Positions 12,461 through 29,591 of a stretch of DNA of 40,465 nt are shown in pieces. The stretch comes from an uncultured Lactobacillus sp. (GTDB lineage Bacteria > Bacillota > Bacilli > Lactobacillales > Lactobacillaceae), in assembly GCF_947367125.1 (NCBI RefSeq), contig NZ_CANBCQ010000026.1, positions 1-40,465 of the forward strand, written 5' to 3'. The position numbers and the translations under genes were made by a program. The notes beneath the pieces are model-generated. The model saw nothing but the letters and a program-made list of their open reading frames with translations. It searched no databases and was not told the DNA's origin. The first letter of the stretch is position 1. Each line of letters begins with the position of its first letter.

Positions 12461-12563
12461 TTGACCTACATAGTAAGAAACTATGCTATAATTTAATTAT
12501 CATTTAAGATTCAGTAACAATGACTTTTAAGTCATATTCTAAGATAAGTATTAAAGAATACCT
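12461..12563 (+). promoter_or_regulatory. Leader and promoter of CRISPR array 2
   Basis: An extended -10 (TG-C-TATAAT, 12484-12492) gives a predicted start near 12499; TTGACC at 12461 is 20 bases upstream, long for a -35. The leader is about 90% identical to that of array 1. TCTAAGATAAGTATT pairs across AAAG with AATACC plus TATCTTAGA, so the hairpin includes the first nine or so bases of the first repeat. Confidence 0.7.
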
Positions 12564-13053
12564 ATCTTAGATGTATGTCATTTCATTATGGTAATAACCA
12601 AGAAATTGGCTGTGATTACACTAAGTTACATCTTAGATGTATGGCATTTCATTATGGTAATAACCTCCTTGATATGGTTTAGGAATATAATCGGGATCTT
12701 AGATGTATGTCATTTCATTATGGTAATAACCTTAACAATCATTGCCTTCGTTGCTAACATGATCTTAGATGTATGTCATTTCATTATGGTAATAACCCAA
12801 AGATGGTACTTTATATTTAGTTACTTCATCTTAGATGTATGTCAGTTCATTATGGTAATAACCTGAATATGGTCGCAGCATCGCTAAAAATCAATCTTAG
12901 ATGTATGTCATTTCTTTAGGGTAATAACCAGCCTGTCATTAGTTTTAGTACTTCTTAGATGTATGTCATATCTTTGTGGTAGTAATCATGGGATCGTAGA
13001 TTTAATGCTATTTCTGCATCTTAGATATATGTCAGTTCTTTGCAACAATAAAA
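12564..13053 (+). CRISPR. CRISPR array 2 (type II-A-like, 8 repeats, 7 spacers)
   Basis: 36-bp repeats start at 12564, 12630, 12696, 12762, 12828, 12894, 12952 and 13018. The first six are well conserved (start ATCTTAGATGTATGTC, end ATGGTAATAACC with small variants); the last two are degenerate. Spacers are 30 bp (12600, 12666, 12732, 12798, 12864, 12988) except 12930-12951, which is 22 bp. Repeat 6 carries a TTTCTTTAGGG core intermediate between arrays 1 and 2, so the arrays share an ancestor. The array converges on cas9 across a shared terminator. Confidence 0.95.
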
Positions 13054-13116: not shown

Positions 13117-16100
13117 TTATAGCATCTGCTTAATTGATACATGGTTTTCTTTAAGTCCAGTAATTGATTGCGTAACTAAAACTGCATTCTCAGAAATCAA
13201 ATTATGCTTTTTGCTTAAAGTAAATCTAGTATGATACCCCAACTTTTCCAAGACTGGTGAAGTTGCATTAGAATGCAACAAAATCAAAATTTGATTTAAT
13301 ACAGTTGCCTTATCACCTGGCTTTAGAGAATTAAAGGTCTTTTGAGCATCTACCAGTTTCTCATAGCAACAATTTAGCTCAACAAACATAGGCATATAGT
13401 GCTTGATCTGATACAGGATTTCTTTGTAAACCTTAATTAGACGCTCATCTGCATTTTTTCTTGCATCCTTTCGTGCTTTATGATTAGAAAAATCTGGATC
13501 TACAACCAAATCCATCAATGCTTGCTGTGATTCTGCAGACAAGATTAATTGTCTATAGTTCCAACGATAGCTAGTGCTAGTAATAAAGAATTTGCTACCC
13601 TTGTCAATAACTACTTGATTAAATGGGATCTTATTCTTTAAAATCTTGATTTTTTTAATTTTCTTCAGGTTAATACCAAGCTCTGGTTTAATGATTTCCT
13701 TTAGTTTTTCTTCATACTCAGTATATCTAATCTTTTGTAGAACATCTAATTCACTAACAAATCTACCTGGAACACCATAAAAACCATATTGCTTATTACC
13801 ATCGCTCCTGGTGATTTCAGCTAACATCATATAGCCATCAACATTAGATGTATAGCCACCATAAATATCGGTATCATACTCTTTTTTCTTGGGAATAAGC
13901 TTACGAGTTTTAGCAGTATCTCGATCATTTCTTGGGAATAATGTTGCTTTAAACATTGCTCCATTATGATAATCAATAGCCAGTGACATCTTTTGTGATT
14001 TGTATTTGTAAACGGTATTCATTTTTGTAATTAAGTCTTTACGATTAAACGCTATCACATCTGTGCCATTAACAAAGATTTGATCTTGTTTACCATAAAG
14101 TAAATTCCACAAGAAATTAAAGCCTTGAGATTTTTTCTCTGAATCTAAGTGAATATCTTGATTCTCTTGTTTTTCATTTTGGGGCTTAAGATATTGACCA
14201 TAAACAAACAATCTGCGAGCTTTCGGATAAACTTTGTAAAGATAAGTCCCCACTACAGCTGTCAAATAAGCATCAAATCCACGATAATACTCATTTAAAT
14301 TTTTGATTCTGAAATAATCGAACTGATACCTAATGTTGGCTACCTGACTATTACGAACTTCAATAATTTTTGTATGCTTAAAGCGACTTTGCATAATTGT
14401 AGCAAGCAATTTTACAATTTGTTGGGTTTCTACTAACTGACGAGCAATGTAACCATCTCTTTGATACTTATTAAGAGTGCTAAAATCAGTAGTTAAGTTT
14501 AATAGTTTACCTTTAGGAATTAATTTTAACCTATTGAGTTCAGTCCAAAATGCTTTAATTGGCATACCTAAAGCATCAGAGTAAGAATTTCCAAACTTTA
14601 AAGCAACCGAACCGTCAACAATTTTGTACTTAGTTAAGACCTTATTATTTTGCGAGTCATCAGTAAGCTTAGAGCGTGGAATTATATGAAGAACAGTGTA
14701 TTTGTAAAGTTCATCGTAATCTATCACTTCCCCACTAAGGGCATCCCTGCCGAGCTGTTGGAAATAGAAGTATTGCTTATCATTAAGCTTATATTTACTC
14801 TTCTTAATAGCATTAGAGAACTCATCAGCTAGTTGCTTGCTAAATAACTTGTTAGCAGATTTATCAGCTTTAAGCTGACTCAATATGCGGTTTAACTGTT
14901 TGCTTCTAGCTTCAGTTTGTTTTCCTTTCTCCTGCTCACTACGTTGGAACATGAGGAAGATCTTGTCAGGTTCTTTACCGTGATTAAGTTTGATATATTC
15001 GTCAACCACGCTCATAGTTTTTCTAATTGCTTTTCGATTACTTGGTGAGGTATAAGAGTTAGCAAGGATATCTTCTAAGCTTTGGTTCTTTGCAGCAGCT
15101 TGGCTAATTTTATCAATCTGTTCACGAAATTCTGGTTTGTAGACAATTTGTTGGAAATTAGCTTTAGTAGTTTCAAGCCGCTGCATAATACTTTTACCAT
15201 AGTTATCCTTAAGTCCTGTAAGTAGTCTTTTAGACAATCTTCCCCAGCCTCTTAATCTAGTATTTGCCACAAATTTCTTTTGGTCATCATCAAGCCATTC
15301 GATTTCATCCAATTTCTTAGCAAGTATCTTATGATCTTCAAAGACTGTAGACCATTCGATCATTTTTTCTAGGTCTTGTTGATAAGCGAAATTATCAATT
15401 TGGTTAGGGAAATATTTTTTCCAAGCGTTATACGTCTGCAGACTTGAAGTGAACTCTTCAGGATTAGATAAACCTGTGATCTTACTACCAGGGATATTGT
15501 GCTTAGCTAATGCTTTTAGAATACGACTAGTGTTAACCTTATTGGTCTTCTTAAATACTTCGTTAAATAAAATTTGCTTAACACCGCCACTAAGTTTTTT
15601 ACCATCCAAATTAACATTGCTCAATTCATTAAATACTTCGTACTTTTCGTATAGTAAGCTATGTTTTGGTAACACTAACTCACTTAATAGATAACTATCT
15701 TTAGCAATAGAGCGCTTGATGAACTTATCGGCAGTTGCTTCAATATCCACCTTATCATAAAAATTCCATGGAGTAATGGCTCCATTATCCTTACGAACCA
15801 TCCAAGCAAAACGACTTGTCTTAGGAATTCCAGATTTAACTTGCTCTTCTGGAGTAACTAGAGGTCCTACGTAATAAGGTATAGTAAACTGCATTAATTG
15901 ACTCAACTCATAAGGCGCATTCTTACGATCCTTTTTTGCTGGGTTAGGTTTAACTAAGAAGTCATAGTATTTACCCTGGTTTTCGAGGATCTTATTGAAA
16001 GTAATTGCATTCAACTGATAAGGGATAAAAACGTTATCGCTTGAGCGCTGAACAGGCAAGAAATTATTCTGAGCAACCAATTCACCTACCTTATCGCTGA

Positions 16101-17325
16101 ATCTAGTTTGAAGTCCTTGTTTATCAATGCTCTTCAATTCTTTGTTGATTAGTTTGTAAAAATCATCTTGCGAGAAATTTTTAGCTACATTGACTTTTAA
16201 CAATTTACGTGCAGCTAGGAGATCTTTTTTCCTGTTACCAATGTATAACGTATAGCCTGCCTTAAGAGTCTTGGCCATTTCATCTGGTAATGTATTCAAG
16301 AACTTAAAATAAAGATTTAAATCTCTCTTATGCTTATCATATAATGCAATTTTTGCATCAACAACGTTGCTGCTTCCATTTAAAATATCAAGCAGTGAAA
16401 TAGCAGAATAGATTTTTTGCAGAGTTTCAAAAATACCAATTTGGTTATCAGTCATACTACCGCTAATTGCATCAAACTTTGTATCTAGTTCCGGATCATC
16501 TAACTTAAATGACCATGCTTTACTGGTTAACTTATCCAGATCCATGTCAAAAATAAAGTTTAGGTGGAAGCTGTTCCCCATAATTGCATTAACAATTTGA
16601 GTAATGATCTTATTATTACGCTTTGCTAAATCTTTATCAGGAACATTATTTACAATTAATTTCTTTAATTCTGCAATCTTTTCCTTCTTACGCATTGAAC
16701 GGTCTTTAATGACCTTTTCAATTTCAGGCGAATTAGCAACTGCAAAGCTTAGTCCTTCTAGGTCATTATAGTCATCTAATGCCAACATGTCGTCCTTGAG
16801 ATTTAGCTTTCCTGGCTTGAACTGTGACATAGGCGTAGTATTAAAGAAATGACCTCTATGTTTTAACAAAGAATGTAAGGCCCAGTAAATTAGTCTAATA
16901 TCAGCTTTTTCGTCTGTAATCATCAAATACTTTTGTAAATGCCAAATTGTTGGAAATTGCTTGTGATAATAGCTAGCAACGTTAGGTCGATCAAAGATTA
17001 CAGTTCTAAACTCCTTGCGTTCGTCAAGTGGAGACAATCCTGCTTGCTTGATACGGTCAAACATTAACGGATCCACCTTATCAATTTCTGGCTTCATAAT
17101 TTCATTAAAATAATGATTGATTCGATTTGCTCTTCTTTTAGTGGTTCGTCTAGCACTTCGAGCTAATCTTCTTGCCTCTGCAGTTTCACCTTCGCCAAAT
17201 TTTGCTACCCCGATAGCTTTTTGATGATGAACCGGTTCCAGAATATTAAGATTATCATCTACTTCAACATGTCCTACAGCGCTTGTACTTGGTGTCAAAG
17301 CCAAATTATAGTTTTTAATTTTCAT
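13117..17325 (-). CDS. cas9: Nuclease-dead type II-A Cas9, 1402 aa
   Basis: Full-length Cas9 of S. pyogenes type. Kept: the Arg-rich bridge helix (ETAEARRLARSARRTTKRRA, 47-66), the recognition lobe, the HNH/RuvC framework (HIIPRS, 880-885; ARQLVETQQI, 961-970; DAYLTAVVGTYLY from 1018), the PAM-interacting domain (IYGGYTS near 1154) and the terminal SITGL signature (1387-1391). Lost: RuvC-I Asp10 is Thr11 (LALTPSTSAVG), RuvC-II Glu762 is Met792 (KIFLMFQRS), RuvC-III His983 is Arg1015 (YYRGFDAY), HNH Asp839 is Leu879 and Asn863 is Val903. His880 and Asp1018 remain. Residue matching was done by eye, but the RuvC-I, -II and HNH changes are unambiguous. It should bind guide and target DNA without cutting. 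No frameshift or stop occurs, so the frame is apparently maintained. AGAAGGA precedes the ATG. No cas1, cas2 or csn2 is near. Confidence 0.95.
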   Translation of the reverse strand: MKIKNYNLALTPSTSAVGHVEVDDNLNILEPVHHQKAIGVAKFGEGETAEARRLARSARRTTKRRANRINHYFNEIMKPEIDKVDPLMFDRIKQAGLSPLDERKEFRTVIFDRPNVASYYHKQFPTIWHLQKYLMITDEKADIRLIYWALHSLLKHRGHFFNTTPMSQFKPGKLNLKDDMLALDDYNDLEGLSFAVANSPEIEKVIKDRSMRKKEKIAELKKLIVNNVPDKDLAKRNNKIITQIVNAIMGNSFHLNFIFDMDLDKLTSKAWSFKLDDPELDTKFDAISGSMTDNQIGIFETLQKIYSAISLLDILNGSSNVVDAKIALYDKHKRDLNLYFKFLNTLPDEMAKTLKAGYTLYIGNRKKDLLAARKLLKVNVAKNFSQDDFYKLINKELKSIDKQGLQTRFSDKVGELVAQNNFLPVQRSSDNVFIPYQLNAITFNKILENQGKYYDFLVKPNPAKKDRKNAPYELSQLMQFTIPYYVGPLVTPEEQVKSGIPKTSRFAWMVRKDNGAITPWNFYDKVDIEATADKFIKRSIAKDSYLLSELVLPKHSLLYEKYEVFNELSNVNLDGKKLSGGVKQILFNEVFKKTNKVNTSRILKALAKHNIPGSKITGLSNPEEFTSSLQTYNAWKKYFPNQIDNFAYQQDLEKMIEWSTVFEDHKILAKKLDEIEWLDDDQKKFVANTRLRGWGRLSKRLLTGLKDNYGKSIMQRLETTKANFQQIVYKPEFREQIDKISQAAAKNQSLEDILANSYTSPSNRKAIRKTMSVVDEYIKLNHGKEPDKIFLMFQRSEQEKGKQTEARSKQLNRILSQLKADKSANKLFSKQLADEFSNAIKKSKYKLNDKQYFYFQQLGRDALSGEVIDYDELYKYTVLHIIPRSKLTDDSQNNKVLTKYKIVDGSVALKFGNSYSDALGMPIKAFWTELNRLKLIPKGKLLNLTTDFSTLNKYQRDGYIARQLVETQQIVKLLATIMQSRFKHTKIIEVRNSQVANIRYQFDYFRIKNLNEYYRGFDAYLTAVVGTYLYKVYPKARRLFVYGQYLKPQNEKQENQDIHLDSEKKSQGFNFLWNLLYGKQDQIFVNGTDVIAFNRKDLITKMNTVYKYKSQKMSLAIDYHNGAMFKATLFPRNDRDTAKTRKLIPKKKEYDTDIYGGYTSNVDGYMMLAEITRSDGNKQYGFYGVPGRFVSELDVLQKIRYTEYEEKLKEIIKPELGINLKKIKKIKILKNKIPFNQVVIDKGSKFFITSTSYRWNYRQLILSAESQQALMDLVVDPDFSNHKARKDARKNADERLIKVYKEILYQIKHYMPMFVELNCCYEKLVDAQKTFNSLKPGDKATVLNQILILLHSNATSPVLEKLGYHTRFTLSKKHNLISENAVLVTQSITGLKENHVSIKQML

Positions 17326-17376: not shown

Positions 17377-17411
17377 TGTGTATGGATTATTACATAAAGA
17401 AATGACATACA
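17377..17411 (-). promoter_or_regulatory. Candidate cas9 promoter overlapping the tracrRNA 5' end
   Basis: On the minus strand TTGTAT, 15 bases and an extended TG-T-AATAAT lie about 60-85 bases upstream of the cas9 ATG. The elements fall within the repeat-like sequence opposite the anti-repeat. The -35 to -10 spacing is short, so this is a tentative call. Confidence 0.3.
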
Positions 17412-17552
17412 ACCTTAGTTGATCTTTTTCAACTAATTTGTAGTTTAAGATAAAGCAACAAATTACTATTTAAGTAGTTTGAAGTTTCAATGTAATGTTC
17501 CGGGATATATCGGAATCTTAAAGAGCTATGCTAAAGAGCATAGCTCTTTTTT
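17382..17552 (+). ncRNA. tracrRNA with a hairpin inserted in the anti-repeat
   Basis: Bases 17383-17411 complement about 28 nt of the repeat (core GAAATGACATACA is exact). The lower-stem partner TAAGAT (17446-17451), complementary to the repeat start ATCTTA, comes only 35 bases later. Between them lies an 8-bp hairpin, TTAGTTGA (17415-17422) with TCAACTAA (17429-17436). Downstream follow a 9-bp nexus-like stem (CAAATTACT 17459-17467 with AGTAGTTTG 17473-17481), a TTCCGG/TCGGAA stem near 17498-17515, and a strong terminator (17519-17549, AAGAGCTATGCT with AGCATAGCTCTT). Divergent from cas9. Host RNase III would be expected to process the duplex. Confidence 0.88.
17519..17552 (+). terminator. 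tracrRNA terminator
   Basis: A 12-13 bp stem with a 4-base loop followed by seven T. As in other type II-A tracrRNAs, the terminator stem is probably also part of the Cas9-bound RNA. Confidence 0.85.
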
Positions 17553-17607: not shown

Positions 17608-17997
17608 CTAGTAATTTATGTCTTGTTTTCTTAATGGAATTTTGTAGAAAATAACGGCAGTTTGCAACGGATCGGAAATCTCTTGTTTACAATATAAGCA
17701 AGTCAATTTATTAGGTATTTCACCAATAGTATCATAGTAATAACCAGAATATACATTGCAATACGGGCAGTACACTGGTATCACTGGTTCAAGGTATTTA
17801 TGTTGAGCTAAAAATTCCAAAAGTTTGTAAGTATCAACAATGCTTATTTTTAATTTTCCTTGGACTTCACTGGGAGAAATTAAATAAGTAAAATCATAAT
17901 GCCCAATGAAATCTAAGAATTCGTCAATATCAATGTTGAATTTTTGCTTTTTGAGTTCTGGTACAATTTCTCCAAAAATATCTTTTGTTTTTTTCAT
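17608..17997 (-). CDS. Zinc-ribbon protein with winged-helix-like N-terminus, 129 aa
   Basis: Two CxxC pairs (Cys77/Cys80 and Cys100/Cys103) form a likely zinc ribbon. The preceding helices (about 38-70, SPSEVQGKLKISIVDTYKLL then EFLAQHKYLEPV) resemble a winged-helix unit. It converges on the tracrRNA with only about 55 bases between. Position next to the dead Cas9 locus makes it a candidate partner or regulator, but nothing in the sequence shows this. A ribosome site (AAGGTT) precedes the ATG. Confidence 0.6.
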   Translation of the reverse strand: MKKTKDIFGEIVPELKKQKFNIDIDEFLDFIGHYDFTYLISPSEVQGKLKISIVDTYKLLEFLAQHKYLEPVIPVYCPYCNVYSGYYYDTIGEIPNKLTCLYCKQEISDPLQTAVIFYKIPLRKQDINY

Positions 17998-18124
17998 TTT
18001 TTAACCTTCTAATTTCTATTTGTGTGCATCCCTACGCATTAAACTTGATATGTTAAGCATAGCAAAATATAGAAACCAAATCAGAAAAACTCCAGACTTA
18101 GTTATCATTAATAGTTTTTCAAAA

Positions 18125-18155
18125 TAAAAGCACTATTTAAAAATAGTGCTTTTAT
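18125..18155 (-). terminator. Terminator after the gene at 18194
   Basis: AAAAGCACTATTT (18126-18138) pairs with AAATAGTGCTTTT (18141-18153). It ends the Sec-region operon on the minus strand and could act in both directions. Confidence 0.65.
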
Positions 18156-18193
18156 CTGCAATTTATTGCGTATCTTTCGTTACTTTTGCCATT

Positions 18194-18553
18194 TTATAAA
18201 GAAAATTTACTTTTAGTTTCTTCAAATCTTCTCTGTGCCATCTTTTTTGCAATATCTTTAGTCATATCAGAAATTTGCATTGCTGAATTATAGTCATCAC
18301 CAAAGAACTTTTTAAGCATATGCAAGCCATCAGCCATTGTAGTACTGTCCGTGGCATCTGTATATTTGTCTAGCCACAATCTGATTAATGATTGCGCCTT
18401 AATATTAAGTCTTACTTGCTCTTTTCCTGTCTTAGGATCTGTTTCCTTAGTTGGTACGACATGAGCTTCCCAGTAAGTCGGTCTGCCATTGTAAAACACG
18501 CCAATAATTGATTTATTGTTGTTCATTTGAGAAATTTCTACTGAAATTGCCAT
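18194..18553 (-). CDS. Hypothetical protein, 119 aa
   Basis: Soluble, with a beta-rich first half (VEISQMNNNKSIIGVFYNGR) and a helical second half (TMADGLHMLKKFFGDDYNSA...). No family recognised. A good AAAGGAAG site precedes the ATG. A perfect 11-bp hairpin (GCATCCCAATC/GATTGGGATGC, 18581-18605) lies in its 5' region. Confidence 0.6.
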   Translation of the reverse strand: MAISVEISQMNNNKSIIGVFYNGRPTYWEAHVVPTKETDPKTGKEQVRLNIKAQSLIRLWLDKYTDATDSTTMADGLHMLKKFFGDDYNSAMQISDMTKDIAKKMAQRRFEETKSKFSL

Positions 18554-18580
18554 AGATTTTACTTCCTTTCTTAATTACTC

Positions 18581-18605
18581 GCATCCCAATCAGAGATTGG
18601 GATGC
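18581..18605. other. Perfect hairpin between two genes
   Basis: GCATCCCAATC (18581-18591) pairs with GATTGGGATGC (18595-18605) over an AGA loop. On the plus strand it is followed by ATCTTTTT, on the minus strand by the ribosome site of the next gene. It may be an RNA processing or stabilising element separating that gene from the Sec genes. Confidence 0.4.
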
Positions 18606-18641
18606 ATCTTTTTGTTTTTATTAAAAGTTGTAGTAACTAAT

Positions 18642-19016
18642 TCATTTGCTACTATTCCAAAGTCTTTCAATTTTTGGAACGTCAATCGTGTTATAGCTTT
18701 GATTGTTAATCCTAAAAGTAGGAGTAATGTACACGCCTATTTCTTCCAAGTCAGATCTTTGATAGTGATTAGCATTAACTACATTTACTCTATTCTTATC
18801 TAAACTGTGCTTAAAAATAAGCCATGGCATTACTTTTCTGCATCTTCTACACTTTTCTCGGTAAAAGATCGTCATTGTTTTAGACTGGCTAAGCGTTTCG
18901 GGTGTAGTCGTCCATTCCCAATACTTAAACCGTCCAAAAACAAATAAAGGATAAGCCATACATAAAATAATTACGATTAACAAAACTTTTTTTTTGTATT
19001 TAGATTTACTATTCAT
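18642..19016 (-). CDS. Membrane-anchored thioredoxin-like protein, 124 aa
   Basis: A basic N-terminus and one membrane helix (about 9-29, KKVLLIVIILCMAYPLFVFG) precede a thioredoxin-like domain. It has a Cys56-Arg-Arg-Cys59 pair after a TMTIFY strand and a TPT cis-proline motif at 98-100. The domain should face outside the membrane. It follows secY by 18 bases, so it may act on disulfides of proteins exported by the adjacent translocon. The ribosome site is weak, and the domain is short for the family. Confidence 0.65.
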   Translation of the reverse strand: MNSKSKYKKKVLLIVIILCMAYPLFVFGRFKYWEWTTTPETLSQSKTMTIFYREKCRRCRKVMPWLIFKHSLDKNRVNVVNANHYQRSDLEEIGVYITPTFRINNQSYNTIDVPKIERLWNSSK

Positions 19017-19034
19017 ACTCTTAGTTTAAGTTGA

Positions 19035-20345
19035 TTACTTAAAGCTGTAAGTTAAACTCATAAAGTCTGAAAATCCTTCTTTAACTTTCAAGCCTTCAAT
19101 TTGTCGTCCCATATCAGTTAATACACCAACGATAATTAATAGACTAGAACCACTTAATCCCATTTCCAGACTTGGTGAAATTAAACTTGAAGCAATTAAT
19201 GGTATTACTGAGATCAAAGCTAAGAATGCTGAACCAGGTAAATCTAAGTCATAAATTAAGTTTTTGACGAAAATTGCAGTTGAATCGCCAGGCCAAACAC
19301 CAGGAATGTAGGCATCCTGTTTTGAAAGATTGTCTGCCAACTTATTAGGCTCTACCTGTACCAATGAGTAAATATAAGTAAAGAGGACAATCAAAATACC
19401 ATACAAGACGGTACCAGTTGGTGAATTTAGAGAGAAGAAATCATTAACAATTCTTGCGGTAACCGAATCACTTTTAGCTTGGACAAACATCATAATTGTT
19501 TGAGGAATGGTTAAAATGGAACTAGCAAAAATTACTGGTACCACACCAGGAACAATTAATTTAAGTGGTAAGTAACTGTCCTTAGCAACCGTATTATCAG
19601 TTAAACGATTAGCAGTTCGAGTATATTGAATAGGTAAACGATATTCTGAACGATTAAACCAAACAATGATTGCAGTCAATACTACTAATAAAACTAAGGT
19701 AATGATTACTAAATCCCACTTAACTCCCGCACTAGTTGATACTGATAAGTAAAATGATTTAGCCATATCAGGTAGACGTTTAACGATACCTGCCATAATA
19801 ATTACTGAAATCCCATTACCTAGACCATATTGCGTAATTTGATCGCCAAGCCACATAGCAAGAAACGTACCTGCTGTAAGTAAAGTCCCGATTACTAAGT
19901 AAGTCCACCAACTGTTATCAACGGCATATCCTAATTGTGACAAGGAGTTAATACTTGCTACAATCCCAATTCCTTGTACAAAACCAAGAATTAAAGTTAA
20001 CCAACGAGTGAGTTTGGTCAGCTTTTTTCGTCCAATCTCACCCTCCTTACTCCACTCCGTCAAGATTGGGATAACGTTTGATTGCATTAGTTGAACAATA
20101 ATTTGTGAGCTAATATAAGCACTTAGTCCCATTGACATCAAGGAAAAAGTTTGGAAGCCACCACCGCTAAACATTGCCATCATGGTTAAAGCAGGGTTAT
20201 TGGTAATCTTTGATAACTGCCTAGGATCAACACCTGGAATTGTAACGTAGGTTAGCAAATCATAAATCAATAAGATTCCAATTGTAATTCCAATTCTTTT
20301 TAGTAAATTCTTTCTGTTTTCTTTTTTAGTAGAACTCATACTCAT
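19035..20345 (-). CDS. secY: SecY, preprotein translocase channel, 436 aa
   Basis: Clear SecY: DLLTYVTIPGVDP near residue 32, the plug and helix 2 region (MMAMFSGGGFQTFSLMSMGL then AYISSQIIVQLMQ), the EWSKEGEIGRKKL loop, and about ten membrane helices. QVEPNKLADNLSKQDAYIPG near 330-350 corresponds to the SecA-contacting cytoplasmic region. It starts 2 bases after the secA stop, with its GGGAG site inside the secA end, so the two are translationally coupled. This should be a second copy beside the chromosomal one. Confidence 0.93.
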   Translation of the reverse strand: MSMSSTKKENRKNLLKRIGITIGILLIYDLLTYVTIPGVDPRQLSKITNNPALTMMAMFSGGGFQTFSLMSMGLSAYISSQIIVQLMQSNVIPILTEWSKEGEIGRKKLTKLTRWLTLILGFVQGIGIVASINSLSQLGYAVDNSWWTYLVIGTLLTAGTFLAMWLGDQITQYGLGNGISVIIMAGIVKRLPDMAKSFYLSVSTSAGVKWDLVIITLVLLVVLTAIIVWFNRSEYRLPIQYTRTANRLTDNTVAKDSYLPLKLIVPGVVPVIFASSILTIPQTIMMFVQAKSDSVTARIVNDFFSLNSPTGTVLYGILIVLFTYIYSLVQVEPNKLADNLSKQDAYIPGVWPGDSTAIFVKNLIYDLDLPGSAFLALISVIPLIASSLISPSLEMGLSGSSLLIIVGVLTDMGRQIEGLKVKEGFSDFMSLTYSFK

Positions 20346-20347
20346 AT

Positions 20348-22801
20348 TTAACGTACTCCCTCTCTAATCTCCGTATGTAAGAAGAATCGACAAACGTCTT
20401 TTTCAATGTTATTGGTCATTTGGTTATACATTTCATGAGCCATATTCTGATACTCAACTAATGGATTGTATTGTCCATAACCCCTTAATGTAACTGACTG
20501 TCTTAATTGTTCCATAATATCAATATGGTTTTTCCAATTAGCATCAATGGCATTTAAGATCATTGTGCGTTCAAAGTCTTGCATCTGATTAGGATCAATT
20601 AGGGCTTCTTCTTTATCTTTAAGATCTTTAAGGGTCTCTTCAAATAAATATTCTTTTAATTCGTCTCGATTTAAACTCTTAACTTGCTCTAAGCTTAAAC
20701 GCTTCAGATGATTAGTCTTATCAATGCTACGTTGTAAATTCTCTTTGTAGTGAGAATCTCTAATCGTAGTTTGTAGTTCATCAATTGTTTGACTTGGATT
20801 TAAATCGACATCTAGATATTCTCTTACATACCTCACTAAGCCTTTGTAATTGGTATGTTCCTTATCTAAGAAGTATTTATCAACCGTGCGTCCAACAGTA
20901 CGATTAATCATTGCCTTTAAGTGAGGTGTAAGATCCTCTTTAGAATCCAAAATAGTCTGTCTTCGGCTATATAAGTGGATTCTTTGTTCATTCATCACAT
21001 CATCGTAACGTAAGGTATTTTTACGTTGGTCAAAGTTGTTTCCCTCGACCTTTTTCTGAGATTGACGTACAGCACTATTAAACAGACGTGAACTTTTAAT
21101 TGGAATAAATTCTTCGCCATCTGCCACAAGTTTATCTTTGGCTTTAGCAATTCTCTCGCCACCAAATCTTTTAATTAGATCGTCTTCCAAGGACATATAA
21201 AAAACTGTTTTACCAGGATCTCCTTGACGACCTGCTCGTCCACGCAACTGATTATCAATACGTCTTGATTCGTGTTTTTCGGTTCCTAAAACAAATAATC
21301 CGCCTAATTCTCTTACTCCTGGTCCAAGCTTAATGTCAGTACCACGTCCTGCCATGTTAGTTGCAATCGTAACCGCACCTGCTTGTCCTGCTTGAGCAAT
21401 AATTTCTGCTTCCTTTTTGTTGTTTTTAGCATTTAACACCGCATGAGGGATGCCAACTTGATCTAACATTTTGGATAACAATTCTGAGTTCTCAACAGAA
21501 GCAGTTCCGACTAGCACTGGCTCTCTAGTTCGATATATCTTTTCGATTAAGTTAAGCACTGCTCTGAACTTAGCTCTCTCCGTTGGATAAAGTACATCAG
21601 GTAAATCCTTACGTGCAATCGGCTTATTAGTTGGAACAGTTACCACTTCCATACCAAATGTTTGATAAAATTCTTCACTTTCAGTAGAAGCAGTCCCCGA
21701 CATGCCCGATAATTTCTTGTACATTCTAAAAAAGTTTTGGTAAGTTACAGAAGCTTCTGTCTTATTAGCGTCATGAATTTCAACGCCTTCTTTAGCTTCT
21801 AGTGCTTGATGTAAACCGTCAGAAAATCTTCTCTCACTCATCACACGGCCAGTATTAGTATCTACGATAAGTACTTCACCGTCTTTAACGATATAATCTT
21901 TATCTTTTTCCATCGTGTAATTAGCTTTCATGGCTTCATCTAAATAGTGAGCTAAGATGAAAGAATCCTCATCATATACATCTTGACCACCGAAAGCTTC
22001 ATTAGCTTTTAAAATTCCAGACCTTTCAAGTGTGATTGTCTTAGTTTCAGCATCATATGTAAAATCATTTTTGTTCATCCGTTTGGCAATCGCATCTGCT
22101 TGCTTGTATAAAGCACGGTAGCTCTTGTCACTACCTGAAATAATTAATGGAGTTCTCGCTTCGTCAATCAAAATAGAGTCAACTTCGTCAACAATTACAT
22201 AATTTAAACCTCTTTGCACTTGATCTTCGGAATATTTGACCATATTGTCACGTAAATAGTCAAAAGCAAGTGCATCATTAGTTGAATAAGTAATATCGCA
22301 GTTGTATGCGGCTTTCTTATCCTCTAAGATCATTTCTTCACCATTTTGACCAACCGTCAACCCCATAAAGGTAAATACTGGTCCCATTTCTTCAAAGTCA
22401 CGTCTTGAAAGGTACTCATTGACTGTAACTACATGTACGCCTTTACCAGTTAAAGCATTTAGGTAAACAGGCATCGTTTCAGTTAAAGTTTTTCCTTCAC
22501 CAGTACGCATTTCAGCTAAGTTTCCTTGATGTAAAACAATACCACCTAGAAGCTGTACTGGATAAGGATAAAGCCCTAATACGCGTTTATCTGCTTCTCT
22601 AATTGTTGCGAAAGCTTCTACCAGTAGATCGTCTAGTGTTCTGCCATTGGCCAATTCTTTCTTAAACTTTGAAGTCTGTGATTGAAGCTCTTCATCGCTC
22701 ATAGTAGAATACTTATCTGCTAAAGCCTCAATTTTATCAACAATCTTTTCAAGTTTCCGCACTTTAAATTTATTATTCTCAACAATTTGTTTTAATCCCA
22801 T
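20348..22801 (-). CDS. secA: SecA, preprotein translocase ATPase, 817 aa, without zinc tail
   Basis: All SecA hallmarks are present: Walker A MRTGEGKT (98-105), the DEVD box (205-208) with SILIDEARTPLIISG, VTIATNMAGRGTDIKLGPGV, HESRRIDNQLRGRAGRQGDPG, and the helical scaffold/wing with NWKNHIDIMEQLRQSVTLRG-type sequence near 755-780. It ends IREGVR; the C-terminal CxCxSG...CH zinc-binding linker of housekeeping SecA is absent. Length is near normal otherwise. It lies between secE and secY. Confidence 0.95.
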   Translation of the reverse strand: MGLKQIVENNKFKVRKLEKIVDKIEALADKYSTMSDEELQSQTSKFKKELANGRTLDDLLVEAFATIREADKRVLGLYPYPVQLLGGIVLHQGNLAEMRTGEGKTLTETMPVYLNALTGKGVHVVTVNEYLSRRDFEEMGPVFTFMGLTVGQNGEEMILEDKKAAYNCDITYSTNDALAFDYLRDNMVKYSEDQVQRGLNYVIVDEVDSILIDEARTPLIISGSDKSYRALYKQADAIAKRMNKNDFTYDAETKTITLERSGILKANEAFGGQDVYDEDSFILAHYLDEAMKANYTMEKDKDYIVKDGEVLIVDTNTGRVMSERRFSDGLHQALEAKEGVEIHDANKTEASVTYQNFFRMYKKLSGMSGTASTESEEFYQTFGMEVVTVPTNKPIARKDLPDVLYPTERAKFRAVLNLIEKIYRTREPVLVGTASVENSELLSKMLDQVGIPHAVLNAKNNKKEAEIIAQAGQAGAVTIATNMAGRGTDIKLGPGVRELGGLFVLGTEKHESRRIDNQLRGRAGRQGDPGKTVFYMSLEDDLIKRFGGERIAKAKDKLVADGEEFIPIKSSRLFNSAVRQSQKKVEGNNFDQRKNTLRYDDVMNEQRIHLYSRRQTILDSKEDLTPHLKAMINRTVGRTVDKYFLDKEHTNYKGLVRYVREYLDVDLNPSQTIDELQTTIRDSHYKENLQRSIDKTNHLKRLSLEQVKSLNRDELKEYLFEETLKDLKDKEEALIDPNQMQDFERTMILNAIDANWKNHIDIMEQLRQSVTLRGYGQYNPLVEYQNMAHEMYNQMTNNIEKDVCRFFLHTEIREGVR

Positions 22802-22810
22802 ATTGTCTCC

Positions 22811-22975
22811 TTACAGCTTGCTTATCAAACTAGTAATCAGCACGTCAATACCCCAATAAACAAGAGAACTTCCGATTACTACTAAAAGTACATAAATCAT
22901 ATGTTTTAGGGATGTTGGTATCTTTTCCCATGTAACTTTTTTCAAAGTCTTAAATACTCTAGTTAAGTAATGCAT
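22811..22975 (-). CDS. secE: SecE, translocase subunit, 54 aa
   Basis: A short frame begins MHYLTRVFKTLKKVTWEKIP and ends with one membrane helix (about 27-49, YVLLVVIGSSLVYWGIDVLI). The KKVTW motif before an amphipathic helix and a single C-terminal membrane segment is the minimal SecE pattern. GGAGG lies 6 bases upstream of the ATG, and the stop is followed by the secA ribosome site (AAGGAG). Position between the secG-like gene and secA strongly supports the call. Confidence 0.85.
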   Translation of the reverse strand: MHYLTRVFKTLKKVTWEKIPTSLKHMIYVLLVVIGSSLVYWGIDVLITSLISKL

Positions 22976-22984
22976 CTATTCCTC

Positions 22985-23875
22985 CTATTTAGTAGTACCA
23001 AGTACGATTAACAAGATCACTAAAATAACCCCTAGCAATTCTGTTAAACGAAACATCAATAATTCATATCCACGTGGTTTAGGACGTTTAGAATCATCCA
23101 TTAATGCAGAACTGTTATCGTCTGATTTATTAGGTTGCAAGAACACTGTGACGATTAATAAGCCCGAAACCATGAGCAAAGCCGTACCTAACACAGGATT
23201 AATACTGATAGTGTGTTTTGCTTTCTTTTTCTTTTGCAAATATTTCTTAGGTATGGGTTTACCATTATAGTCAACCAATTCTCCTTTATGCTTTCCTGTA
23301 CCTCTAAAAGCAATGATTGGACGATTAGCTTTTTTCTTTTTATCTGCTTTTACTTTTTTATCGTGTGCCAGTTTAGCTTTCATTTGATTATCATAGCCCA
23401 CGATCGTAGTGACATACGCTTTTACTTTTTTTGAATCACTGGCGCTACCAACTTTGACCGCTGATTTAGTAACTGCATGGTATTTAGCTTGTGTAGCTTT
23501 TTGATTAGCTTTATCAGTCTGATCTTTTTGTGCCACTTTAATGTAAGCTAATACTTCTTTGCTAAATTGATAGACACTACTAGAGTATCCTTTATAATTA
23601 TTCGCACCTTTTAAAGCATCTAAAGAATTTTGAACAGATTTTTCTTCCTTTTTAATACTTTTGTTGTAGTATTTATTAAAATTTTTAGCCTTTTTGTCTT
23701 TAAGCTGTTCTTTGGCAGTCACGTAGCCATGGACATTCATTAAGCTAACAGTGTTTTTTTGAAATTCAGAAGTTAATTTTTTCTGGGTTAATGGTGTTTT
23801 AATTGAACAGCCTGCTAAAATTAAAGTTATCGTAGTTGAAAGAGCTACTAACCAAGCTTTTTTTAGTTTAATCAT
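22985..23875 (-). CDS. Lipoprotein with C-terminal SecG domain, 296 aa
   Basis: The start at 23875 follows AAAGGAAG and overlaps the previous stop. A lipoprotein signal ends in Leu-Ala-Gly-Cys23. Residues 24-220 form a Lys-rich, helical external region. The last ~75 residues match SecG: membrane helix 226-247 ending in FLQPNKSDD, a short cytoplasmic loop, RPKPRGYE, and helix 271-293. SecG has its N-terminus outside, so the fused external domain is topologically consistent. SecG is normally about 75-80 residues and free-standing; this fusion is unusual. It directly precedes secE. Confidence 0.8.
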   Translation of the reverse strand: MIKLKKAWLVALSTTITLILAGCSIKTPLTQKKLTSEFQKNTVSLMNVHGYVTAKEQLKDKKAKNFNKYYNKSIKKEEKSVQNSLDALKGANNYKGYSSSVYQFSKEVLAYIKVAQKDQTDKANQKATQAKYHAVTKSAVKVGSASDSKKVKAYVTTIVGYDNQMKAKLAHDKKVKADKKKKANRPIIAFRGTGKHKGELVDYNGKPIPKKYLQKKKKAKHTISINPVLGTALLMVSGLLIVTVFLQPNKSDDNSSALMDDSKRPKPRGYELLMFRLTELLGVILVILLIVLGTTK

Positions 23876-24437
23876 CCGCAGATACTTCCTTTCGCAATTC
23901 TGCTCCATACTTTGCATCGTATTCTTTTAAATAATCATTCAAGATTCTTCGTTGTGCTTTAATATTTCCGATTAACACATCTGCTTGTTCATGACGCTTG
24001 GGATCTTTAAGTACGTTATCCTGCACAAAGGAATCAATAGTTAAGTAAATTGCTTCAAAAGGTGACAGAATTTGACCATCTATTTCAGAAAAATGTTCTG
24101 TGGTTGCCATCATTTCTGCTACTACGCTTTTAATTACTTGATTGCTTGGTACTAAGGCTTGATCTAAGTGATTGACATAATAAAAGCTTACAATAAAGCT
24201 CCGCAAAGCTTGGGTATGCATCGCTAGAGGAATTCCTTGAAAAGCTTTACGCAACTTTTTCGTCTCCTTCGTATTGTTTTCTTGGTTACCAATTTGAAGC
24301 AAAACATTATAAACCACTTCTACCACACTAGTTGTGCTGTCAGCATCGTCCTTAGCAATTTTTTTAGCGTAATCTAAAAGGTCATTTTTAAGAACAAAAA
24401 CTCCATTTTGCAATTCATCTTGTTTGGTATTTGACAT
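23868..24437 (-). CDS. Hypothetical protein opening the Sec operon, 189 aa
   Basis: Helical soluble protein with no signal peptide or membrane segment, not recognised. Its last codons overlap the start of the lipoprotein-SecG gene, and AGGAGG precedes its ATG. First gene of the minus-strand Sec operon, so a chaperone or targeting role for the translocon is conceivable. Nothing in the sequence proves it. Confidence 0.65.
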   Translation of the reverse strand: MSNTKQDELQNGVFVLKNDLLDYAKKIAKDDADSTTSVVEVVYNVLLQIGNQENNTKETKKLRKAFQGIPLAMHTQALRSFIVSFYYVNHLDQALVPSNQVIKSVVAEMMATTEHFSEIDGQILSPFEAIYLTIDSFVQDNVLKDPKRHEQADVLIGNIKAQRRILNDYLKEYDAKYGAELRKEVSADD

Positions 24438-24608
24438 GTTAATCCTCCTAATTTATTTATTGACACTCATATCCTATAAATTTTCCTATCTCTTTTGTTT
24501 TTTTTTCTATTTTCCAAAAAATCCCCCTTTTTCTGGTTTTTGAACAAACAACTTTTTTAAATCGTTTTGTTTCATAATTAATTTTGGATATGGAAAGGTA
24601 GGTATTTT
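24438..24608. promoter_or_regulatory. Divergent promoter region of the Sec operon and the zinc-finger gene
   Basis: Very AT-rich, with homopolymer tracts. On the minus strand a 22-codon frame (24507-24575, MKQNDLKKLFVQKPEKGGFF...) precedes the Sec operon but has no ribosome site. It might be a leader peptide or chance. Confidence 0.35.
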
Positions 24609-25379
24609 ATGATATTTTTTACGACAATTCACCACTTAGATAAATGGCATTATCTAAACAGCAAAAATATTCGTAAATATTTATCTGCCTATCCGTATTT
24701 GCAAAACGGCAACTACTATGCAGTTTGCTTTTACTGTCATAACCCTATTAGATTAGTCGGTAGGCTTAATGCTAAAACAAATGAAGTTTCCTATTATGGC
24801 GTTCATAGTAAGAAGCTCATTCCTGGTTTTTCTGTATTTGACAAGGCTAAACTTAGTCACTGTTTATACAAAAATAATCCATCAACATTTGTTTTAGATC
24901 CTTTAAAGCAAAAGTCATTAAATGTTAATCAGGTTAACATTGATTCATTACGTAAAGATCTTACGTATTACACGGGCTTTTACTTTTCTAAAAAGCTCAC
25001 CTATTCATTTTTATTGCGGAACCAAAAAGCCTTTGAGTACAGGGATGTAGATCAGTATAATTTTCCGTTTGTACTACTATTAGTAGCCAAATCGGTATCT
25101 TTAAACTATCGTAAGGTTGCAAACCCCCGTCTTAAGTATGCAATAGATAATAATGCTGATTACTTTCAAGTATCTTCTTCAGGACAAATGGTTCCTCTTG
25201 ATGAAAAAGCTAATTTAATAATGTCTTTTGAAGAACAAGAGCTTGCTAAAAATCAGTTGCCACTACTGCATGTACGCATCTACGAGATTCTAGATGGTAC
25301 AAAGAATTTAATTTGTGAATCTCACATTTTTGCAAAGATGTTTAACAATTTAATTGATGAAGAAAGGACTGAAATTTAG
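24609..25379 (+). CDS. Hypothetical protein with a CxxC zinc-finger motif, 256 aa
   Basis: One CFYCHN motif (Cys40/Cys43) near the N-terminus is followed by a His-Cys pair further on (SHCLY near 84), which could complete a zinc site. The rest is alpha/beta and soluble, with no recognised family. The stop overlaps the GTG start of the NlpC/P60 gene, so the two are translationally coupled. GGAAAGG lies upstream of the ATG. Confidence 0.65.
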   Translation: MIFFTTIHHLDKWHYLNSKNIRKYLSAYPYLQNGNYYAVCFYCHNPIRLVGRLNAKTNEVSYYGVHSKKLIPGFSVFDKAKLSHCLYKNNPSTFVLDPLKQKSLNVNQVNIDSLRKDLTYYTGFYFSKKLTYSFLLRNQKAFEYRDVDQYNFPFVLLLVAKSVSLNYRKVANPRLKYAIDNNADYFQVSSSGQMVPLDEKANLIMSFEEQELAKNQLPLLHVRIYEILDGTKNLICESHIFAKMFNNLIDEERTEI

Positions 25380-26245
25380 TGGAATACACGCTAAAGTCAA
25401 ATGGCTCAGTAAAACTAGCTTTTGCACTTATTGGTGGTGGTCTAGCAACTACTGTTGTAGCACCTGCCGTAGCTCACGCTGATACAGTTAAAGTGGAAAA
25501 AGGACAAACATTAAAGTCGATTGCTAAAGAACACCATGTGACTGTTAAAGCTTTGGCAAAAGCAAATCATCTTAAAACCAATGCTAAAGTATCAGAAGAT
25601 CAAGATTTAGAAGTTCCTGATCCACCTAAGACATATACTGTTAAAGCGGGTGATACTGTCTCCGAAATTGCCTATGAACATGGTTTAAAAACGGAAGACG
25701 TGCTTAAGTGGAATAACCTGTCATTCAGTGATTCTCAGATTTATATTGGAGATGAGCTTAATCTGCAAGATCCAAACCAACCACAGGAAAATGACAAACA
25801 AATCACTACTCAAAATCAAGGTAATTCTAACGTTCATCAAGCTTCTTTAGTTGGCGACACCAAAGCAGAACAGATTGTCAATTTAGCAGTCCAGTATGCT
25901 AATATGGGAATTCCTTATCAATGGGGTGGAGAATCACTTAACGGTTTCGATTGTTCTGGCTTGACGCAATATATTTATCGACAAGTTGGTATTCAAATTA
26001 ATCGTGATACAATTCATCAAGAACAGAATGTAGATACAACTGATGTTGCCTCTGCATCTGATGTTATCAATACTGCCCGCCCAGGGGATCTTCTATTTTG
26101 GGGTTCACACGGTGCTAGCTATCACGTAGCTATTTACATTGGTAATGGTAAATTTGTAGCGGCACCACAACCAGGACAGAATGTTGATATTGAAACAGTA
26201 TCTGATTACTTCAAACCTTCTTTTGTCGGCAGAGTAGTCAGATAA
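25379..26245 (+). CDS. Secreted LysM-NlpC/P60 peptidoglycan hydrolase, 288 aa
   Basis: GTG start overlapping the preceding TAG, with AAAGGA upstream. A Sec signal peptide ends at about AHA34. Two LysM domains follow (about 36-79 and 86-129; TYTVKAGDTVSEIAYEHGL is typical), then an Asn/Gln-rich linker and an NlpC/P60 domain (about 163-288) with catalytic Cys192 (FDCSGL) and His249 (YHVAIYIG). It should cut peptide stems in the cell wall. On a mobile element such enzymes often open the wall for secretion or transfer machinery. Confidence 0.9.
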   Translation: MEYTLKSNGSVKLAFALIGGGLATTVVAPAVAHADTVKVEKGQTLKSIAKEHHVTVKALAKANHLKTNAKVSEDQDLEVPDPPKTYTVKAGDTVSEIAYEHGLKTEDVLKWNNLSFSDSQIYIGDELNLQDPNQPQENDKQITTQNQGNSNVHQASLVGDTKAEQIVNLAVQYANMGIPYQWGGESLNGFDCSGLTQYIYRQVGIQINRDTIHQEQNVDTTDVASASDVINTARPGDLLFWGSHGASYHVAIYIGNGKFVAAPQPGQNVDIETVSDYFKPSFVGRVVR

Positions 26246-26264
26246 GCATTTAAATAAAACCAAC

Positions 26265-26305
26265 AAAAAAGAGCTGTAAGGCTATCAACCTTACAGCTCT
26301 TTTTT
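26265..26305. terminator. Bidirectional terminator
   Basis: AAAAAAGAGCTGTAAGG pairs perfectly with CCTTACAGCTCTTTTTT over a 7-base loop, between the convergent hydrolase gene and the gene at 26304. Confidence 0.9.
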
Positions 26306-26687
26306 AGATTCGGTTTTGACTAAGAATATCATCCAAAACTTTGAGTGTCTCATCATTAGGATTAATAAAAGTCAATTTTTTATTTTTTTCTGCTTTTTTA
26401 TTAAATTCTCTAATTACGTTTAGGATATAAACAAATACACTAATAAGTGCCATATGCTCTTTTTCATAGGTTAGTTTGTAATTCATTCCATTAAACGTTA
26501 TATTGACATCTTGCGTAATTGCAGGTATACGATATGTCCTACCTTCATGTGTACGACTGTCAATCATAAAGATTATGTTAGAAACCATTAATAATTCATT
26601 GGTATTGTTAAGTCTTTCTACCAGTTCTTTGCCTGCATCTTGTACAGTAGGCATTGCGTTACGACCAATCATTAAATACTTTTTCAT
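26304..26687 (-). CDS. Hypothetical protein, 127 aa
   Basis: Basic soluble protein without a recognised family; a hydrophobic helix at about 79-95 (ALISVFVYILNVIREF) may be a core helix. AAGGAG precedes the ATG and a strong terminator overlaps its stop. Confidence 0.6.
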   Translation of the reverse strand: MKKYLMIGRNAMPTVQDAGKELVERLNNTNELLMVSNIIFMIDSRTHEGRTYRIPAITQDVNITFNGMNYKLTYEKEHMALISVFVYILNVIREFNKKAEKNKKLTFINPNDETLKVLDDILSQNRI

Positions 26688-26768
26688 GCTTTCTCCTTAA
26701 ATAAGCTTAATCATCTATTTAAGGATATTGTACGCATTTTATTTTTTATTTGTTGATCGCTAAATTCT

Positions 26769-27125
26769 CTAAAAAGTGTAGCATTCAATATAATGGTCGT
26801 CCACAGTCTGAAACATTGTTAGTAATGCAGGATCAATGTACATGACTGCTTCAAAATCTTCTCTTTTATGTGTTAGACCATGTTTAGCTAAAACTTCTTT
26901 ACTAAAACTTACTTGATATACATGATATAGTTGTTCATCAATTATTTTATTTATTCTTTCACTAATCGTTCTAAAATTCCAATCTGTTTTAGGCTTATCT
27001 TGTTGCAAAGCTTGTAGTTTAAGCAACTGATACTTTTCCTCCTGTAAAAAGTCGGCTAAATTAACAATCCATCTATCCAATCTTCTATCTTCTCTTATTT
27101 CTTCATTTTCTACTTGGTTTGCCAT
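26769..27125 (-). CDS. Hypothetical protein, 118 aa
   Basis: Charged helical protein, unrecognised. Good ribosome site (AAGGGAA). Lies 24 bases after the HTH regulator gene and is probably co-transcribed with it. Confidence 0.6.
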   Translation of the reverse strand: MANQVENEEIREDRRLDRWIVNLADFLQEEKYQLLKLQALQQDKPKTDWNFRTISERINKIIDEQLYHVYQVSFSKEVLAKHGLTHKREDFEAVMYIDPALLTMFQTVDDHYIECYTF

Positions 27126-27149
27126 TTCTTTCGTTCCCTTCGTATCTTT

Positions 27150-27497
27150 TTACTTTTCATTCATCTGCAGTATCTTTATCAAAACTTCTGAATCATTCAT
27201 AATAGCTTTCTTAATTCTTTTACCCCATGTATCATTGGGAATATTATTTTTTAGCCATTCTCCTAATTCCATAGCTTTAGTAAGATCTATTTGTCTTTTT
27301 TGGTCTTCAAATTTCGACTTATCATATACCTTAGCTAATTTAGCAATATTTTCATACTTTCCAAAAGGTACTTTGCCTTTAGCCTGTCTACTATAACGCT
27401 TAAGTGTTGATACAGGTATGTTAGTTGCTTCATGTAATTGATTAAACGTTAAATGATTCGACAAAAGTATTGCTCTAGCTTTTTCAATTTCCTTCAT
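27150..27497 (-). CDS. Helix-turn-helix regulator, 115 aa
   Basis: The start at 27497 has AAGGAG 7 bases upstream; the frame is open to 27590 without a site. TFNQLHEATNIPVSTLKRYS (17-36) is a clear helix-turn-helix. The C-terminal part is helical. Likely a small transcriptional regulator or partition/replication control protein of the adjacent genes. Confidence 0.65.
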   Translation of the reverse strand: MKEIEKARAILLSNHLTFNQLHEATNIPVSTLKRYSRQAKGKVPFGKYENIAKLAKVYDKSKFEDQKRQIDLTKAMELGEWLKNNIPNDTWGKRIKKAIMNDSEVLIKILQMNEK

Positions 27498-27629
27498 GTT
27501 CAACTCCTTATCCTTTACACTTGACATTATACTCGCTTTGGTATCATTTTCAATATCTTTTAGTATCATTTTTTGTACTTTTAGGTGCAAAAAAAGAAAA
27601 GCACATGACTTCCTTCTTTAATTAATCTC

Positions 27630-28973: not shown

Positions 28974-28992
28974 ATTCTAACCCCACTAAAGA

Positions 28993-29577
28993 TCAAAAGT
29001 CGTCATCAGGTAAATCAAACAGCGATTCATCAAATCCACTATTGTCTGATTTGTCTGAAGTTCCCTCTGCCATTTGACTATCGGCATCGGGCATCTGTCT
29101 GTTTTTTGATTTTTTCACCTTATCACCTAGATTTTCTGTCGGCACAGAATTTTCAGGTCTAGGCTTTGCTACATTAGGTTCTTTTGAAGATTGTTCTTCA
29201 ATCTTGTTTTTTATCGTATCTCGTACGTCTGACGCATCAACTTGCTTTGTTGGTGCTGATTTAGCAACTCCCTTCTGATCGTTAAATTCACTGATTTTTA
29301 CTATTTCTTTGCCAAAAATTGATAGGTTGTAGAAGGTTCGATCGTATTTTTTATTTTCACTAGATACAATATGTCCTTCTACCAAAACGAAATCATCTTT
29401 AGCAAAATTTTGAGCCACGGTCTTTGCTGTATCACGATAAAAAACAATAGGGAATTTGTTGACACTTCTACCACTGCTTTCGTGTAGTATAATACGCAAG
29501 TAGAGGATTCCTTTTTCAGATTTATAAAGTTTTCCTTTTTTTGCAATTTGACCCGTAAGGCATACTATTTGAGACAT
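28993..29577 (-). CDS. ssb: Single-stranded DNA-binding protein, 194 aa
   Basis: An OB-fold domain (about 1-105: CLTGQIAKKGKLYKSEKGIL, KFPIVFYRDTAKTVAQNF, FVLVEGHIVSSENKKYDRTF) is followed by a disordered polar linker and an acidic tip ending FDLPDDDF, as in SSB proteins that recruit partners through their last residues. The usual tip is DDDIPF, so this is a variant. GAGGTTAG precedes the ATG. It is divergent from the recombinase-like gene across a 61-base gap. Confidence 0.75.
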   Translation of the reverse strand: MSQIVCLTGQIAKKGKLYKSEKGILYLRIILHESSGRSVNKFPIVFYRDTAKTVAQNFAKDDFVLVEGHIVSSENKKYDRTFYNLSIFGKEIVKISEFNDQKGVAKSAPTKQVDASDVRDTIKNKIEEQSSKEPNVAKPRPENSVPTENLGDKVKKSKNRQMPDADSQMAEGTSDKSDNSGFDESLFDLPDDDF

Positions 29578-29591
29578 TTTCTAACCTCATC

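Follow-up and report, generated by a model that had tools for sequence, protein, structure and literature searches.

Clustered regularly interspaced short palindromic repeats (CRISPR) systems of types IV and V include nuclease-dead effectors that work by binding. Type IV-A is plasmid-borne, is not expected to have nuclease activity and often lacks adaptation genes, and its spacers target plasmids and, as reported once, a host gene; type V-M (Cas12m) is a single effector with an inactivated nuclease, is enriched on plasmids and inhibits transcription (both according to the available parts of PMC11656645). In type II, the phage-encoded II-C2 Cas9 is a naturally partly dead protein on a mobile element, with a dead RuvC domain and an apparently active HNH domain, for which sequestering of CRISPR RNAs (crRNAs) has been proposed (PMC11656645 and PMC12669027, in the portions accessible), and the accessible portion of a 2025 classification paper mentions as its sole dead Cas9 a phage Cas9 with one dead domain. 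Cas9 also serves as a repressor in regulation by small CRISPR-Cas-associated RNA (scaRNA) and long trans-activating crRNA (tracr-L), which relies on live Cas9 and shortened complementarity (PMC8730458, in excerpt). No Cas9 naturally dead in both domains appeared among the literature matches listed, a weak negative, as the excerpts searched covered neither preprints nor most subscription papers. Here we describe such a candidate, encoded on a 40,465-nt contig of an uncultured Lactobacillus sp. (NZ_CANBCQ010000026.1, or C26, in a genome of 76 contigs); this whole stretch is called the window below. Judging from its sequence and relatives, we consider it reasonably probable that the system is a plasmid-borne, natural nuclease-dead Cas9 (dCas9) that silences rival plasmids and bacterial defence genes by binding alone.

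The locus departs from each of these precedents. Type IV-A is a class 1 multi-subunit complex with DinG, whereas the window system is built on a single Cas9; Cas12 of type V-M has one nuclease domain, and here two domains are inactivated. Unlike in phage II-C2 Cas9, the HNH domain is hit as well as RuvC, and arrays are present. In contrast to scaRNA/tracr-L regulation, the catalytic residues have been lost here, and the spacers are mostly of full length.

The cas9 gene lies at 13117..17325 on the minus strand. It is an open reading frame (ORF) of 1402 codons, as the preliminary description had stated, and it begins with ATG and contains zero internal stops; the full-length Cas9 profile TIGR01865 scores 653.7 bits against a cut-off of 100, and PADLOC also calls the ORF Cas9. 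The recognition lobe and the region interacting with the protospacer-adjacent motif (PAM), both noted earlier, are recovered by the Pfam models REC and PI, which exceed their cut-offs together with RuvC and HNH_4, whereas the bridge helix, named in the same description, falls short by profile (21.9 vs 26.3 bits). The bridge-helix arginines R53, R56, R60 and R68 are invariant in 37 of 37 aligned rows, dead and active. By sequence, the closest solved structures are the S. thermophilus and S. pyogenes Cas9 proteins. An AlphaFold2 model of residues 1–1200 (37 aligned sequences; mean predicted local distance difference test score, pLDDT, 81.5) matches both, and in a Foldseek search with this model the best 50 of 371 matches were all Cas9 structures, with TM-scores of at most 0.76 by query. 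As modeled, the Cas9 fold is retained.

Alignment confirms the earlier statement that five of seven catalytic residues are substituted. In S. pyogenes numbering, T11 stands for D10, M792 for E762 and R1015 for H983 in RuvC, and L879 for D839 and V903 for N863 in HNH; only D1018 (D986) and H880 (H840) are retained, so that the four RuvC positions read T, M, R, D and the three HNH positions L, H, V. The same pattern extends to related proteins. Among 22 dead rows, D10, E762 and D839 are each kept in none, N863 in none or one (P0018, where the column is gapped) and H983 in four, while H840 and D986 are kept in all 22. The D10 position is occupied variously by T, V, L or N, and none of the lost positions has a conserved substitute. 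All 58 active rows retain E762, H983, D986, D839, H840 and N863; D10 is retained in 57, with a gap in the remaining one. Dead and active rows were sorted by these same sites, so that the residue comparison describes the groups and the tree is the test. The 22 dead rows of the residue comparison include the window protein, near-copies (P0001/P0002, L003/P0008, L005/P0019) and P0018, and exclude the very divergent P0033 as well as fragments. Because identical changes recur in independent records, we rejected an assembly artefact confined to one record.

In a tree of 64 Cas9 proteins, 22 dead rows (here with P0033 and without P0018) form one clade with an SH-like approximate likelihood ratio (SH-aLRT) of 100; this was a quick tree with SH-aLRT as its sole support measure. 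The sister group consists of site-intact Cas9s from the window's own genus. Identity of dead rows to the window Cas9 goes down to ~36%. Four gene-piece comparisons in two plasmid pairs gave nonsynonymous divergence (dN) of 0.14–0.30 against synonymous divergence (dS) of ~1.9–3.6; dS is close to saturation, which makes dN/dS rough, yet it is well under 1 in both pairs. These values support an old dead lineage under purifying selection. A tblastn search returned nine plasmid records, six of which cover at least 80% of the query: five are dead, and the sixth, from Nicoliella, belongs to an active system that has cas1, cas2 and csn2. The five dead copies reside on L. crispatus, L. taiwanensis and L. 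johnsonii plasmids of 106–195 kb typed as non-mobilizable, and three of them are intact. The preliminary description had seen that both nuclease sites were lost while the gene had not decayed; clade-wide loss and purifying selection uphold this, and the two broken plasmid copies qualify it. Both nuclease sites having been lost without decay while guide machinery and fold were kept, selection for binding is the best interpretation.

Only three matches to the window Cas9 were obtained among 50,697 phage records, at 27–28% identity over 78% of the query; the dead-clade alignment, run against viral contigs, picked up 104 pattern stretches and zero relatives, and the genome contigs scanned gave one distant Cas9 only, from Lachnospira (30%). 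Some individual sequences stand apart. P0018, obtained in the homologue search, has lost catalytic residues yet is nested in the active group, and H840 and D986 are again kept; by its SH-aLRT placement it is likely a second, apparently independent loss. P0033 is a very divergent dead-type Cas9 with a barely recognizable HNH region, and in another genome of the genus a dead-type Cas9 survives only as its C-terminal 33 residues (L039, 7667–7765; 67% identity), a remnant.

The window retains putative guide elements for such a protein. Array A (12564..13053, plus strand) comprises eight 36-nt repeats and seven spacers, one of them shortened to 22 nt, and its repeats are most degenerate at the Cas9 end. 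Its leader (12470..12563, plus strand) contains an extended −10-like element, TATGCTATAAT, read by eye, and the sequence TATTAAAGAATACC adjoins the first repeat. Mini-array B (1050..1268, plus strand) has four repeats, three spacers, the third of 15 nt, and a leader of its own; a third array with two spacers lies on contig C43 of the same genome. The leaders of all three are near-identical, each carrying TATGYTATAATYTAATTATCATTTAAG and TATTAAAGAATACC. Three dispersed mini-arrays likewise occur on the L. crispatus C25 plasmid (NZ_CP047143.1). Throughout the dead systems, repeats are of 36 nt and spacers of 30 nt, a few spacers being shorter or longer, and the repeats vary among themselves, as would be expected without new acquisition. 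By comparison, 12 of 14 active Cas9 genes adjoin arrays in which 9 to 74 repeat copies have an exact 20-mer in common. On the L. taiwanensis plasmid (L004), two arrays with degenerate repeats (10318–10815 and 15339–15785) lie in opposite orientation, ~4.5 kb apart.

A trans-activating crRNA (tracrRNA) is predicted at 17383..17549 on the plus strand, with an anti-repeat at 17383–17411 and an intrinsic terminator at 17520–17549. The predicted anti-repeat pairs with its own repeat at −26.8 kcal/mol, compared with a mean of −14.0 and a minimum of −25.8 kcal/mol for 200 shuffled repeats, and the site is the best duplex site in window positions 10500–20500. With the system's own three repeats the predicted tracrRNA gives −23.9 to −28.9 kcal/mol, and with five active-array repeats −9.1 to −15.0 kcal/mol. 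The best duplex site also lies near the arrays of both plasmids of L. johnsonii G2A and near array b of L. taiwanensis. No promoter was listed by the scans for either the leader of array A or the predicted tracrRNA.

We collected 72 spacers from eleven arrays of dead-Cas9 loci and compared them with the non-array sequence of 75 genomes from the window's genus. Scoring was limited to four candidate stretches per genome, so the counts are lower bounds; further matches with E above 0.01 in these genomes were left out. At least 11 of the 72 have a match: nine in genomes of the genus at E ≤ 6e-5 per genome, and two, winA_1 (E 2e-5) and G2A_p1_15 (E 0.1), on plasmids only. Spacer 1 of array A (winA_1; 12600..12629, plus strand) matches the C25 plasmid at 30/30, with its protospacer 43 nt past the annotated start of a gene that has a 39.9% identical homologue in the window (27630..28973, minus strand). 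The first 200 nt of the window gene match the spacer at 15/30 at best, and it should on that account escape spacer 1.

Several other matches fall in or beside defence genes. AbiEii is the target of Ltai_a_2 (29/30), with matches on two plasmids of L. johnsonii and in a single genome, and G2A_p1_2 (28/30) matches an ORF directly downstream of an AbiLi homologue, frameshifted there. G2A_p1_4 (28/30 in the 30-nt register) lies within the live cas9 of another genome, and the spacer, translated in one frame, gives the Cas9 motif PYQLHQLEL; the contig begins inside that gene, which puts D10 outside view, and the other sites looked at are intact. Two further spacers, Ltai_a_1 (30/30) and Lc1700_3 (28/30), come from plasmids whose Cas9s are far apart and both match the start of one gene of 273–277 aa. 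In one genome (G072), AbiK-like, AbiJ-like and Tmn-like genes lie within 10 kb of it; in another (G071), the nearest such genes (a methyltransferase and an NsnA/PD-T4-2-like gene) are ~7–9 kb off, past sugar-nucleotide genes. It had no Pfam match above the cut-off and no PADLOC match, and we regard it as a candidate for a new defence gene. A zinc-ribbon-like CPEC...C pattern can be seen by eye in its product (L065, 13065–13886, minus strand; L066, 10044–10877, plus strand).

The remaining targets are more varied: a Rce1-like membrane protease gene in three genomes, its frame shorter in one (G2A_p1_8, 29/30), a gene that by eye lies near polysaccharide genes (G2A_p1_5, 29/30), an LPXTG Rib surface protein (C25a_3, 28/30), a small gene whose neighbours encode FtsK-like (weak) and plasmid Rep proteins and a type IIG enzyme (G2A_p2_1, 30/30), and a gene on two L. 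gasseri plasmids (G2A_p1_15, 28/30). By class, three of the 11 fall within or next to named defence families, two are the one uncharacterized gene, and the rest are plasmid, mobile, surface and membrane genes. Weak hits were not counted: winB_1 (25/30, intergenic and palindromic), C43_2 (25/30), C25c_2 (25/29), G2A_p1_2 in G053 (23/30) and G2A_p1_4 in G016 (26/34). A phage collection yielded nothing better than E 9 for the 72 dead-array spacers, a result without weight, since 72 active spacers also gave none at E ≤ 1.

Ten of the 11 protospacers are followed on the 3′ side by NNRAA, the exception being that of winA_1 (AGGCACC); at the 4.7% frequency of NNRAA in the window this corresponds to P ~6e-13, for a motif derived from the same data. 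An NGG PAM suggested by the first two hits was dropped after more targets showed NNRAA. As a control, 72 spacers were drawn from the 373 extracted from 12 active arrays and searched outside their own arrays at E ≤ 1e-4. At least eight have a match, again a lower bound: the same limit of four candidates per genome applied, and in the genomes of origin these were mostly taken by arrays. Six of the eight control protospacers also fit NNRAA. With one ORF taken for each, seven of the eight control targets have PHROGs matches: two to integrase, one each to helicase, tail sheath and holin, and two to proteins of unknown function. The eighth is a 62-aa fragment with no PHROGs match. Of the dead-array targets, eight of 11 were compared with PHROGs (all but the cas9, the AbiLi partner and one of the two copies of the 273-aa gene, the second); seven had no match and the surface protein had partial matches only. 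By this comparison, the targets of live arrays are mostly phage-type genes, unlike those of dead arrays.

The dead system resembles the type II-A systems of Lactobacillus chromosomes in its sister Cas9s, repeat and spacer lengths, NNRAA-like flanks and predicted tracrRNA. It differs from them in having lost both nuclease sites, in its degenerate, dispersed mini-arrays and in its plasmid, defence and host-type targets. The adaptation genes cas1, cas2 and csn2, which stand beside cas9 in type II-A, likewise set it apart: Cas1 was not found in the window's genome with profile PF01867, and for the five dead plasmid copies from Lactobacillus no cas1, cas2 or csn2 is annotated within ~6 kb, the search for cas2 and csn2 having covered the annotation and not profiles.

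Taken together, these features point to a dCas9 that would bind crRNA and DNA and, once on its target, would lower expression without cutting; lowered expression could help the plasmid to keep out its relatives or to become established in hosts that have defences. For the window element, exclusion of relatives is the likeliest use, because its supported target is a sibling plasmid; its relatives would add defence genes. This extends what had been claimed before: as read from the sequences, the clade sits on plasmids with arrays against plasmids, defence genes and a live cas9. More tentatively, Lactobacillus megaplasmids may have domesticated Cas9 as a fully nuclease-dead, reprogrammable repressor against host immunity (live Cas9 and abortive-infection genes) and sibling plasmids, with guides held in scattered mini-arrays.

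A number of observations weigh against silencing by binding. Most spacers (61 of 72) have no match, and that of G2A_p1_15 is the weakest. Plasmid 1 of L. johnsonii G2A contributes five of the 11 matched spacers, and its own dead cas9 is interrupted by IS30. Not every matched target is a defence or plasmid gene, and the targets belong to other strains and species. For the ten spacers of 30 nt in arrays A, B and C43, scoring of every candidate outside arrays gave no own-genome match better than E 1.8, and silencing of the present host is for that reason not supported; the single strong match among the window's spacers is the one to the sibling plasmid. The own-repeat duplex of the predicted tracrRNA is barely below the lowest of 200 shuffles and that of the C43 repeat is not below it; no tracrRNA site was found near the Lc1700 or C25 cas9. 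Two of the five dead plasmid copies are broken, one split by IS30 and one in two frames. The strand of the guides also matters. All 11 matched spacers equal the coding (sense) strand, so that the guides would pair with the template strand; NNRAA sites in nine target genes are 64% sense, which gives P 0.007 for 11 of 11, and the bias differs from that of the controls (2 sense and 6 antisense, one of the six on the 62-aa ORF; Fisher P 0.001). With S. pyogenes dCas9, template-strand binding is weak inside genes. CRISPR interference work in a Lactobacillus (L. plantarum) picked nontemplate binders, in the part of the report available (PMC6429040). The all-sense spacers weigh against a simple elongation roadblock. 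The interference by binding that the preliminary description proposed is in this respect only partly borne out: loss of the sites and retention of fold and guides agree with it, and the sense orientation does not agree with its simplest form.

Decay offers another account of the same features. Catalysis may have been lost first, with arrays and gene drifting since and the matches left from a cutting era; the degenerate repeats, the failure to find cas1, the two broken plasmid copies and the lack of own-genome matches would suit such a relic, and the sense-only bias could be the residue after a purge of effective guides. We nevertheless consider this unlikely, given frames that stay open over deep divergence with dN far below dS, the invariant bridge-helix arginines, the leader-plus-array copies at three places of one genome, and chromosomal host genes among the targets, which would have been lethal for a cutting ancestor. 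Cas9 might also serve as a decoy, soaking up the crRNAs or tracrRNA of a host's live type II-A system and so blocking its immunity. The sequestering proposed for the phage II-C2 Cas9 with a dead RuvC (PMC11656645 and PMC12669027, as far as accessible) and the sister relationship to site-intact Cas9s of the genus lend this some appeal. The predicted tracrRNA, however, prefers its own three repeats over the five active-array repeats, several arrays with matched spacers and PAM-like flanks have been kept, which would be needless for a decoy, and the window's genome contains a single Cas9 and no Cas1 that was found; we judge a decoy quite improbable.

Two further accounts have little in their favor. 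The equivalents of H840 and D986, invariant in the dead rows, might still permit nicking by a residual or rewired nuclease; both may, however, be structural, and varied residues stand in place of D10, E762, D839 and N863, none of them conserved as a substitute, which makes such activity very doubtful. Regulation of the plasmid's own genes, for example of copy number, would fit the dispersal of arrays along the element and is scarcely credible in view of the spacers: the six full-length spacers of array A have no match with ≤8 mismatches in the window outside the array, and the search of the whole genome was as fruitless.

If binding alone is indeed its function, this Cas9 clade would be nature's own dCas9, and repressors shaped by evolution instead of point mutation would be at hand. 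It would show how plasmids use guides against host defences and against one another, as a reprogrammable plasmid weapon, with CRISPR interference turned by a parasite against its defender. The clade also makes testable why H840 and D986 persist while other sites go, and why the guides are sense-strand.

From kinship and spacer matches we infer that the window contig is a plasmid resembling Lactobacillus megaplasmids. A backbone block at 17608..36063, mostly on the minus strand, encodes SecY, SecA, SecG, NlpC/P60, SSB-like, integrase and topoisomerase proteins; the block is common to the window and the C25 plasmid, and its gene order is as in the latter. Within it, the SecY, SecA and SecG homologues (19035–23917) constitute an accessory Sec system in a plasmid-like backbone. 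Elsewhere in the window, a 415-aa protein with a sigma-70 region 4 domain is encoded amid unassigned genes (7951–9198, minus strand), and two DUF3846 proteins occur on the same contig (11073–11456, just below the cut-off, and 39795–40187). At 3685–4485 and 4576–5118, a match to HNH_repeat (homing endonuclease associated), slightly below the cut-off, adjoins a protein with an IS605 OrfB-type N-terminal helix-turn-helix.

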